A DNA stretch of 64,000 nucleotides from Mucispirillum schaedleri (GTDB lineage: Bacteria; Chrysiogenota; Deferribacteres; Deferribacterales; Mucispirillaceae), in contig CASEIN010000017.1 of assembly GCA_949287985.1 (NCBI GenBank), positions 1-64,000 of the forward strand, written 5' to 3'. The notes beneath the pieces are model-generated. The model searched no databases. It saw only the letters and a program-made list of their open reading frames with translations, and was not told the DNA's origin. This document shows positions 3,866-45,693 of this stretch, one piece after another (positions within the stretch are counted from its first letter, which is position 1; each line of letters begins with the position of its first letter). Position numbers and translations under genes: made by a program.

Positions 3866-4159
3866 TTAACCTACCAAACTTTTTATATTCTCCAGCTCAT
3901 TATTCATACTTACTAATGCGTTGCGAATATCTATATCGTTTTGCAGATTTAAGAAATACTTATCACTTACATTAAAATATCTTGCTAGTCGCAGAGATGT
4001 ATCAACAGTGATTTTACGTTTATCTTTTAATATATCCTGTATACGAGATGTTGGAACATTTATATCTTTTGCTAATTTATATGCAGATATTCCCAGTGGT
4101 TGCATAAATTCTTCTAATAATATTTCACTTACTTTTGGTGTTTCTATTATATTTTCCAT
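3866..4159 (-). CDS. higA: HigA-family antitoxin (XRE helix-turn-helix)
   Basis: A 97-residue antitoxin that would neutralise the upstream toxin and bind the operon promoter. The HigA hallmark is clear: ILLEEFMQPLGISAYKLAK, then the helix-turn-helix INVPTSRIQDILKDKRKITVDTSLRLARYF, then VSDKYFLNLQNDIDI. An ATG at 4183 is possible, but the ATG at 4159 has an AAGGAG Shine-Dalgarno at proper distance and gives the family-typical N-terminus. It follows the toxin stop codon by 10 bases. A second, frameshifted copy lies at 4948-5240, so this module has been duplicated in the island. Confidence 0.9.
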   Translation of the reverse strand: MENIIETPKVSEILLEEFMQPLGISAYKLAKDINVPTSRIQDILKDKRKITVDTSLRLARYFNVSDKYFLNLQNDIDIRNALVSMNNELENIKSLVG

Positions 4160-42440: not shown

Positions 42441-43550
42441 TTATCTTGCTTTGCTTCGCGAATATATTAGAAATACAGAAATAACTAAAAATAGTATAAG
42501 AGGTCCAAAAGTTGCAGTAACTGGTGATAATGCCCCTTTATCCCCTAATGATTTACCAATGGTTTGAGAAATTATAAAAACAAGTGCAAACGTAAATGTA
42601 ATGGTAGCATTTTTTACTATCGAATAATTTCTTGAAAAATTAATTGAAATTGGAAATAAAAATATTACTAAAACAATAACTGATAATGCAGAAGCAATTT
42701 TAAAATAAAGGTTTATCTCATAGGTTGAACTATTTATACCCTTGCTTTTGCTTATTTGTATCATAGTATATAATTCTTTAGGTGTTAATGCTTTTTCATT
42801 TGTAGTGGAAAGGCTTACCATTTGGTCCCAAATACTCGTTCCTTCTCTTAGAACTCTTGATTTAATATAAGATATTTCTGGTGGATTTTTAGATATATTG
42901 CTGACAGTAATATTATCTGCCACCCATTCATTTTTATTACCATTTGTATTGTTTTCCTGTTTTGAAATAACATCTATTTTAACAATATATTTTACTGAAT
43001 TATTATCTAAAAAATATTCCGTAACATTATACACTTTCTTATCAGTAATAGAAACAAAACCAATATTAGAAATAACTTTATCACTGCCTACAAACCAAGT
43101 ATTATTAAAACCTGTTAATGAATTTGTAGTAACACCCGATTTTAGTCTACTTAATTCACTATCTTTATAGACTCTTGCTTCTGGCACAACTTTATATTCA
43201 ATATAAAGCATAATGGCTGATAATGCTATGCCTATAAGTAAAAATGGAATAACTAGTTTTCCAACAGAGCCACCTATTGTCATATAAGCAAGCAGTTCAT
43301 TGGAACGCATTAATATAAGCATTGTAACCATTACTGCTAAAGCTGCAATAATAGGCACAACTTTATTAACATCTATTAATGATGATGCTGCAGCTATGGA
43401 AACAAGTTCTTGTGATGTATATTCGGTTTCAGAAAGAGAAACTGATAGTGTCCAGATAGATGAAAGCACTAAAAGCATTAAAATCAAAAGTGCAACAAAA
43501 AATAAGTATTTTAAAAAGGTTTTGATTGTATATACATAAAAACTGTTCAT
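42441..43550 (-). CDS. LptF/LptG (YjgP/YjgQ) family lipopolysaccharide-export permease
   Basis: A 369-residue protein with the YjgP/YjgQ plan: transmembrane helices near residues 10-35, 60-80 and 98-118, a periplasmic jellyroll domain (about 125-260), then three more helices (about 270-365). The segment TMLILMRSNELLAYMTIGGS is the family coupling helix. In the Lpt system LptF and LptG pair with LptB to extract lipopolysaccharide. I cannot tell LptF from LptG, and the partner is outside the window. Convergent with comEC, 1 base apart. Confidence 0.85.
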   Translation of the reverse strand: MNSFYVYTIKTFLKYLFFVALLILMLLVLSSIWTLSVSLSETEYTSQELVSIAAASSLIDVNKVVPIIAALAVMVTMLILMRSNELLAYMTIGGSVGKLVIPFLLIGIALSAIMLYIEYKVVPEARVYKDSELSRLKSGVTTNSLTGFNNTWFVGSDKVISNIGFVSITDKKVYNVTEYFLDNNSVKYIVKIDVISKQENNTNGNKNEWVADNITVSNISKNPPEISYIKSRVLREGTSIWDQMVSLSTTNEKALTPKELYTMIQISKSKGINSSTYEINLYFKIASALSVIVLVIFLFPISINFSRNYSIVKNATITFTFALVFIISQTIGKSLGDKGALSPVTATFGPLILFLVISVFLIYSRSKAR

Positions 43551-43683
43551 ATGCAATACTAATATAATTATATATTTTTTTCAACGATTACTTTTATTTA
43601 TACTGATTTATAAGACATATTAGATATACTTTTATTATTGAAAATAACATAATAATACTGTATAAAATTCTACAGGAGGAAAT

Positions 43684-45693
43684 ATGGCAAATAAGATTTT
43701 TAAAATTTATGTTCAAACTTTTTCATTTCTAGTATTTTTTCTCATAGTATCTAGTCTTTGCAGAGTAGGATTTATAATCCATAGTGGTATTATAAATAAA
43801 GGATTAAATATTGCAGAAAATAATATTTTTCCATTTCTAGACTTTTTAAATACTATACTAGCAGGTTTAAGATATGATGGAAGAATTATTGGTTCTCTTA
43901 CTTTAATTTTTTTGGGACTATATACTATTTTTATTATACAAAATAAAACCAAATTTATCTTACTCTGTATTTATTCATTTACTATTTCTTTTTTTATCAT
44001 AACTGCTACTGTTGTAAATGATACATATTTTTTCATTTATAATGACACATTTAATATTATCTTACTAGGTGCTGTTTTTGATGACCAAACAGCCATTTTT
44101 CAAACGGCTCTTAATAGTGGATATAGCGTACCACTAAAACTATTTTTTATCATGATATTTACAATATTTACCACATATTTATATGCAAAATTGTATAAGA
44201 ATATAGAAAAGAAACAATTTAAAAGTAATACTAAATTAAATGTTTTTACAGGTATATTTTTAGCTTATCTAATTCCTTTTATAACATCATCTACATTAAA
44301 TCTTCAAGGTGGTGATTTAAATTATATTGTTACTTTACCTGAAAATAACTTTTTAAAAAAAGCAACTCCGGGTGCAATACATGATTTAGACAGAGTAAAT
44401 AGAGCCTACAATAAAATAAAAGGCGAAAGTTTTGAAAAGTATGCTGGGGGGGGGGAATCCATTGCTAATGTTTTAAAAAAATATTTTAATCATATAAATA
44501 TTCAAGATAATATAAGTATGCTTATGGAAAAAGAAGTTAGTTTTGATAATCATAAGCAGGCAGACCACATTTTTCTTATTATTATGGAATCACTTTCTGA
44601 ATACCACTTATCACACGAATTTGAAGAATCAGGCATAAGCAAAAGCATGTATAAATTAATTAATTCTGAAAATGGATTAAAAGTTCCTATTTTTATACAA
44701 AACGGATATGGAACAATAGAAACTCTTGATTTAATGGTTACTGGCTTATACAGCACATATTTTCCTGTTAGTGAGATGATAGGAAAAATTTCTTGTTTTG
44801 ATTCATCAACTGGAAAAATATTTAAAGATTTAGGCTATGATACATCTTTTTATTATTTTGGAAGCTCAGCATGGAGAAAAGTTGGAAGTTATGTTTTATC
44901 TCAAGGCTTTAACCAAAGCTATGCTATGGAAAATATGAAAAATAAAACAAGAAGTACGTGGGGTATATATGATAATGAAGGTTTTGATTTTATATATGAT
45001 GATATAAAAAATCATAAAGGTAAAACTTTTAATATGATATTAACCACATCTAACCACCCACCATATGATATAAACACTAAATCATATAACATTGATACCC
45101 AAAAAATTGAAAACTTTTTAGATGAAAAATACCCTAAAAATAAAAGATATGGTGGTATAAACAGCCAAATATTATCTGTTACTGCATACTCAATAGAATC
45201 TGTAGTAGATTTTGTTGAAAAAACATATACAAAATATCCAAAATCCTTATTTATAATTACTGGCGACCATTTTGATAGAATACACCCAAGCCCTGTGAGG
45301 GATATATATACTTCCACATCTATTCCTCTTATAATGTACGGCTATGGAGTTAAAGATATAAAACTAAAATATGCTGCTGCAAGCCACAAAGATATAGTAC
45401 CAACTATTGTGGAAATGAATGCTCCACTAGGTTTTAAATATCATTCCTTTGGAGATAGTTTTATTACTTATGATAATAATTCTTTAATAGATTATGAAAG
45501 AATAGCTATAGGGGCACAATCTATCGCTAATGGCAGGTTTATATATAATGGAGAAAATATAGAATATTTTAATGGTGCAAAACAAAAGAAAAATGATATT
45601 AATATTGCAAAAGAATATATCAATAAAAGAAATGATGGTAGAGCTATAAGTTGGTATATTGTTAATAAAGGCTATGAAATAAACAGCCCTTAA
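43684..45693 (+). CDS. LTA-synthase-like membrane sulfatase-fold phosphotransferase with G10 tract
   Basis: A 669-residue alkaline-phosphatase-superfamily enzyme. About five transmembrane helices occupy residues 1-205, then an extracytoplasmic catalytic domain: HIFLIIMESLSEYHLSHEFE (metal site), NGYGTIETLDLMVTGLYSTY (nucleophile Thr region) and ITGDHFDRIHPSP (second metal site). Relatives transfer glycerol phosphate or phosphoethanolamine groups to surface glycans or lipids. Residues 255-257 are encoded by ten consecutive G at 44446-44455; as read, the gene is in frame. One base more or less would truncate the protein ahead of the active site. AGGAGG precedes the ATG. Confidence 0.88.
   Translation: MANKIFKIYVQTFSFLVFFLIVSSLCRVGFIIHSGIINKGLNIAENNIFPFLDFLNTILAGLRYDGRIIGSLTLIFLGLYTIFIIQNKTKFILLCIYSFTISFFIITATVVNDTYFFIYNDTFNIILLGAVFDDQTAIFQTALNSGYSVPLKLFFIMIFTIFTTYLYAKLYKNIEKKQFKSNTKLNVFTGIFLAYLIPFITSSTLNLQGGDLNYIVTLPENNFLKKATPGAIHDLDRVNRAYNKIKGESFEKYAGGGESIANVLKKYFNHINIQDNISMLMEKEVSFDNHKQADHIFLIIMESLSEYHLSHEFEESGISKSMYKLINSENGLKVPIFIQNGYGTIETLDLMVTGLYSTYFPVSEMIGKISCFDSSTGKIFKDLGYDTSFYYFGSSAWRKVGSYVLSQGFNQSYAMENMKNKTRSTWGIYDNEGFDFIYDDIKNHKGKTFNMILTTSNHPPYDINTKSYNIDTQKIENFLDEKYPKNKRYGGINSQILSVTAYSIESVVDFVEKTYTKYPKSLFIITGDHFDRIHPSPVRDIYTSTSIPLIMYGYGVKDIKLKYAAASHKDIVPTIVEMNAPLGFKYHSFGDSFITYDNNSLIDYERIAIGAQSIANGRFIYNGENIEYFNGAKQKKNDINIAKEYINKRNDGRAISWYIVNKGYEINSP
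44446..44455 (+). repeat. Homopolymeric G10 tract inside the sulfatase-fold gene
   Basis: Ten G in a row within a coding region of a strongly A+T-rich genome, in the sequence CT-G10-AATCC. I saw no comparable G or C run elsewhere in the window. Such tracts are hot spots of slipped-strand length change. Confidence 0.95.

Follow-up and report, generated by a model that had tools for sequence, protein, structure and literature searches.

A G10 tract in a membrane-anchored sulfatase-like gene of Mucispirillum schaedleri, very probably one of about 30 poly-G/C phase-variation switches in coding regions and promoter spacers

A run of ten G residues in the gene for a membrane-anchored sulfatase-like enzyme of Mucispirillum schaedleri very probably confers phase variation at the level of translation, as a contingency tract, and would be one among about 30 poly-G/C switches in this genome, which sit in coding regions as well as in promoter spacers. 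In the mechanism that we envisage, slipped-strand mispairing in replication would gain or lose single Gs, a process that we infer because pure homopolymers are found to differ in length by single bases. At ten Gs, the switch would be ON and the full 669-aa membrane-anchored, phosphotransferase-like enzyme would be made; at nine or eleven Gs it would be OFF, with an early stop past the tract leaving a membrane stub without the catalytic domain. Some tracts would act in this way, by frameshift, in surface-glycan and DNA-methyltransferase genes, while others would act by altering the −35/−10 spacing of lipoprotein promoters. Such switching would presumably occur within a population. The preliminary description of this DNA had called the gene probably phase-variable, and this reading is supported both by a G9 allele with a broken frame in a related genome (G005) and by the genome-wide excess represented by 30 tracts.

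The window analyzed here comprises 64,000 nucleotides (64 kb) with a G+C content of 30.6%. Read directly from the sequence, exactly ten G occupy positions 44446-44455 of the forward strand (44440-44459: tatgct-GGGGGGGGGG-aatc), and they constitute the sole G/C run of at least 8 in the window. At its present length, the proposed switch is in frame (ON) and forms codons 255-258 of the 669-aa open reading frame 43684-45693 (+ strand; ATG start, AGGAGG upstream), which encodes the sulfatase/LTA-synthase-like enzyme. GGG accounts for 10% of the glycine codons in the large open reading frames of the window, and the other two Gly-Gly-Gly stretches in these reading frames are encoded by GGTGGTGGT and GGTGGCGGT, both of which avoid GGG; codon use therefore does not account for the G10 tract. 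The preliminary description had been struck by ten consecutive G in a coding region of A+T-rich DNA and had regarded codon use as a poor explanation, and both statements hold on exact counting.

The N-terminal membrane part of the enzyme, of about five helices, covers residues 1-201 (43684-44286, + strand; low-confidence model) and is retained in the OFF product. Its predicted helices span residues 2-201 in this low-confidence model, an AlphaFold2 prediction for the 669-aa protein with seven orthologues whose mean pLDDT is 46. The Sulfatase catalytic domain (PF00884; E 1.4e-19) covers residues 295-577 (44566-45414, + strand) and is lost upon frameshift. The tract accordingly lies between the membrane part and the catalytic domain, as had been claimed, with the last helix ending at about residue 201 in the low-confidence model and the Sulfatase domain beginning at residue 295. 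Five residues (E302, T344, H458, D528 and H529) are invariant across seven full-length orthologues and presumably correspond to the metal and nucleophile positions of LtaS/OpgB/EptA-type transferases. A membrane N-terminus (helices from the low-confidence model) followed by a Sulfatase (PF00884) domain is the architecture of LtaS/OpgB-type proteins. A profile search of solved structures with the 669-aa protein matched only 3lxq, an uncharacterised Vibrio protein (E 5.4e-07), and nothing else. Against the phosphoglycerol transferase I profile (NF009027), the protein scored 18 bits, below the family cut-off of 572, and it is not counted as a member of that family. The designation as an envelope-modifying enzyme given in the preliminary description can be retained at the family level, on the strength of the PF00884 match and the membrane N-terminus. 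Decoration of an envelope glycan or lipid is the candidate function that we deduce. The divergently oriented neighbor (42441-43556, − strand) encodes an LptG-like LPS-export permease of the LptF/LptG family, as assigned by domain and family match, and is given as context only; the sulfatase-like gene sits in different neighborhoods in the congeners G006, where it adjoins an RND efflux pair, and G002, so that gene neighborhood says little about it.

Frame computation shows that the full 669-aa protein is encoded only at G10, while alleles with G8, G9, G11 or G12 are truncated at residues 260-264. The G9 product (263 aa) ends at a TAA at 44474-44476 and the G11 product (261 aa) at a TAA at 44466-44468 (both + strand); these predicted stops lie at most 10 codons past the tract. 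A one-base change in either direction therefore costs the catalytic domain, in agreement with the earlier claim that such a change would remove the active site.

Such an allele is present in G005 (record CALUZC010000027), the closest relative with a good genome of G000, the genome from which the window derives; G005 is related but falls into a different species-level cluster, rather than being a strain of this species. The proteins of the flanking genes (ComEC, LptG, MgsA, Crp) are 96-99.5% identical between the two. At the same site, G005 carries G9 and its gene is split exactly there, with residues 1-263 followed by about 410 codons in another frame. The dN/dS ratio between G000 and G005 is 0.21 upstream of the break and 0.12 downstream, and the break is therefore recent and not a product of decay; the downstream frame of the G005 orthologue is, to judge from these substitutions, under purifying selection. 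Related genomes consequently hold an open G10 allele and a broken G9 allele that is otherwise intact, as contingency loci do. The preliminary description had named an invariant tract length as the outcome that would refute phase variation; instead, the length differs between these two genomes. Parts of the sulfatase-like gene (window 43984-45600, compared with L048 and L047) are 83-90% identical to G005, while the flanking DNA is mostly 93-100% identical, and over 44784-45383 the match of G005 to G004 is at least equally close; the gene may be a recombination mosaic.

The genome-wide search for G/C tracts of at least 8 that had been proposed earlier was carried out by pattern searches of the 2.44-Mb genome (79 contigs) and returned 30 runs with a sharp peak at 9. 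Counted by exact length from 6 upward, 24 runs have length 9, 21 have length 6 and four have length 10, and lengths 7, 8 and 11 occur once each. From a third-order Markov model fitted to the same sequence, 0.54 runs of at least 9 per genome would be expected. The tracts exceed chance in both length and number, and their length distribution is bimodal, a shape that neither chance nor codon use yields. Since base composition differs between genomes, no host association is claimed from tract counts across the order. In G005, a C9 and a G9 lie about 17 bases apart in opposite orientation (G005:C4:65851-65884; L110/L111) and could form a hairpin.

In nearly all coding tracts, the G run is on the coding strand. 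The genes that contain or adjoin them code for glycosyltransferases (GT2, GT8, GtrII), an MBOAT O-acyltransferase, FdtA and a formyl/GNAT enzyme; the others encode a methyltransferase, a type III mod with res behind it, and a further methyltransferase that is type III-like. The coding tracts are mostly in glycan-modifying and methyltransferase genes, and the glycosyltransferases, the MBOAT acyltransferase and the type III mod bear out the contingency-locus pattern for surface modification genes invoked in the preliminary description. The type III mod gene at L064 (71-4602) carries G9 at 1217-1225 and is followed by res, and in G005 the orthologous frame is broken at a G11 tract; it is a candidate phasevarion. 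At L061 (1142-7186), a DISARM-like DrmD helicase gene adjoins the type III-like DNA methyltransferase gene; in the latter, a G10 tract (4073-4082) puts the 5' part out of frame. This is possibly a switched phage-defence locus.

About nine tracts of G000 constitute a second class and make up most of the spacer of sigma-70-type promoters with the sequence TTGACA-TT-C9-ATGA-TATAAT or one close to it, the homopolymer separating consensus −35 and −10 elements (L049 4152, L054 3991, L055 3961, L056 4003, L059 3990 and 5050, L060 3941, L065 4048, L072 3992). The intergenic tracts with shared flanks had been considered as a repeat element, an idea that was given up when alignment in the C orientation revealed the −35/−10 promoters. 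The pattern is strand-specific, occurring 10, 12 and 9 times on the C strand of three genomes versus 0, 1 and 0 times on the G strand. The −35-plus-tract pattern is found in 9 of 10 Mucispirillum genomes and in G011, a member of a sister genus, but hardly occurs elsewhere in the order, and it is near zero in the reversed control. The next gene often starts within 60 bases, and most downstream genes encode proteins with a lipoprotein signal (lipobox read by eye), some being outer-membrane-protein genes. The −35/−10 spacer is mostly 15 bp with C9, mostly 16-17 bp with C10, and 17 bp with C11, and slippage would be expected to shift these promoters toward or away from the usual 17-bp optimum. We regard the C9 promoter cassette as a candidate genus-wide cassette for transcriptional phase variation.

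The sulfatase-like gene itself has tracts elsewhere among the relatives. Orthologues from G001 and G006 carry G9 at residue 316, that of G009 carries G9 at residue 364, and that of G006 has a second G9 at residue 626, whereas three orthologues (G002, G003 and G004) have no tract, and G007 and G008 lack the gene. Where the G10 tract of G000 is located, other Mucispirillum orthologues have AGGTGGC or a similar sequence. The homologue in G011, which is 45% identical in the catalytic part, also carries G9 at the corresponding position, with its frame broken there. Congener genomes contain 18-49 G/C runs of at least 8, with the exception of the incomplete G004. With these numbers, roughly 2% of genes would be expected to carry a tract. 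Because four tract positions occur in one gene, a result that together with the sister-genus case is far from chance, the comparison suggests that switchability has been selected for; how often tracts arose is beyond what a gene tree of this size can resolve. The genome of G004 (57% complete; L032, L047) has only 2 runs of at least 8, through either assembly loss or real tract loss.

Tract lengths were taken from draft, mostly metagenome, assemblies, and homopolymers are error-prone, so that the true tract might be stable and the differences between genomes artefacts of sequencing or assembly. Among the rivals to phase variation, this one retains the most weight, and it is nevertheless improbable. 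Fifteen tract loci are common to G000 and G005, and among coding tracts five of eight G/C tracts differ in length versus three of 51 A/T runs (Fisher p = 0.0005; the A/T set consists of the coding A/T runs of at least 7 in the same alignments), so that G005 differs at coding G/C tracts and hardly at coding A/T runs. Noncoding G/C tracts are no more variable than noncoding A/T runs (2/8 vs. 6/18, both G/C cases coming from the L059 tract), and a general extra variability of G/C tracts is therefore unsupported for noncoding DNA. In four G000-G005 pairs the frame is clearly toggled, and the lengths match open versus broken frames with intact flanking frames: L063 (G9 off, G10 on), the type III mod of L064 (G9 on in G000, G11 off in G005), the methyltransferase of L066 (G11 off, G10 on) and the sulfatase-like gene (G10 on, G9 off). 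Moreover, the tract recurs in independent genomes, and orthologues bear tracts at other positions.

Both frames might instead be read from one DNA length, through slippage of transcription or ribosomal frameshifting at the tract, so that expression would be tuned rather than switched; this is slightly less probable still. Homopolymers of 9-10 can cause slippage, and the genes that are out of frame retain intact downstream frames. However, the DNA length itself varies among related genomes, the promoter-spacer tracts are untranslated, and bacterial slippage is best known on A/T runs. Two further explanations have very little to recommend them. The tract lies in a linker, where it adds one residue to a conserved Gly-Gly, and GGG might have been selected at the protein level with the DNA run being incidental; but the other triple glycines avoid GGG codons, the run is ten bases and not nine, 24 of the 30 tracts of the genome have a length of exactly 9, many tracts lie outside coding sequence, and the frame-broken G005 allele already contradicts a structural role. 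Ordinary pseudogenisation, to which the broken frames of G005 and G011 and the absence of the gene from G007 and G008 might be attributed, is equally implausible, as each break coincides exactly with a tract, the genes are otherwise unbroken and dN/dS downstream is 0.12.

Several points count against phase variation itself. The lengths are those of metagenome assemblies, G005 represents another species-level cluster, three orthologues lack a tract, and the noncoding G/C tracts do not exceed noncoding A/T runs in variability. In addition, MutS and MutL domains are present in long open frames of G000, and intact MutS/MutL would lower the slippage rate. The tracts therefore persist alongside mismatch repair, and loss of mismatch repair was rejected as their cause. 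Taken together, the data make it probable, at a confidence below that placed on the G10 tract, that the genus operates a dual programme, in which poly-G frameshift tracts serve glycan and DNA-methyltransferase genes, a recurrent poly-C cassette in promoter spacers makes the expression of a set of lipoproteins random, and selection has repeatedly produced new tracts at different sites in one envelope-enzyme gene.

The gut mucus is the habitat of Mucispirillum, which has been linked to inflammation in mouse models (PMC5285517). The text of the 2017 Mucispirillum genome paper (PMC5285517) nowhere mentions phase, homopolymer or frameshift, and we found no report of phase variation for Mucispirillum or the Deferribacterota in the open-licence literature. 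If about 30 loci switch randomly, one strain would comprise many surface types, which would matter for immune recognition and phage resistance as well as for differences among mouse colonies.

The mechanism as such is already known. Neisserial contingency genes with poly-G/poly-C coding tracts, such as pilC and the lgt genes (PMC5320596), likewise have an uninterrupted G run of about 9-12 inside their coding sequence, where a one-base change shifts the frame, and a neisserial genome, too, holds many of these loci in genes that modify the surface. Mucispirillum differs in phylum, in the position of the run mid-gene between domains and in a length distribution peaking sharply at 9, and its switches are putative. 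The neisserial lipid A phosphoethanolamine transferase gene eptA is switched by a coding poly-T (PMC6111236); its product shares with the Mucispirillum enzyme the membrane anchor and the alkaline-phosphatase-like superfamily, and both genes have a coding homopolymer. Unlike the mid-gene poly-G, however, the poly-T of eptA lies at the 5' end, and the Mucispirillum protein is closer to LtaS/OpgB-like proteins than to EptA. Promoter-spacer phase variation of porA, fetA and opc (PMC5320596, PMC2791445) also rests on a homopolymer between −35 and −10 whose length sets the spacing upstream of surface-protein genes, whereas in Mucispirillum a nearly identical cassette, with a predicted effect, recurs before many lipoprotein genes of one genome. 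Phase-variable type III mod phasevarions are known elsewhere, e.g., ModS (PMC8125046), and L064 is comparable in that it encodes a type III mod, with G9 in the coding sequence and res behind it, and in that the G11 allele of G005 is broken; L064 differs in having a single-base repeat and is a putative phasevarion. Mucispirillum stands out for its phylum, for how many loci are involved, for the class of promoter tracts and for the recurrence of tracts in one gene; the last of these, with tracts at different sites among orthologues, provides a case in which selection for switchability itself could be tested.
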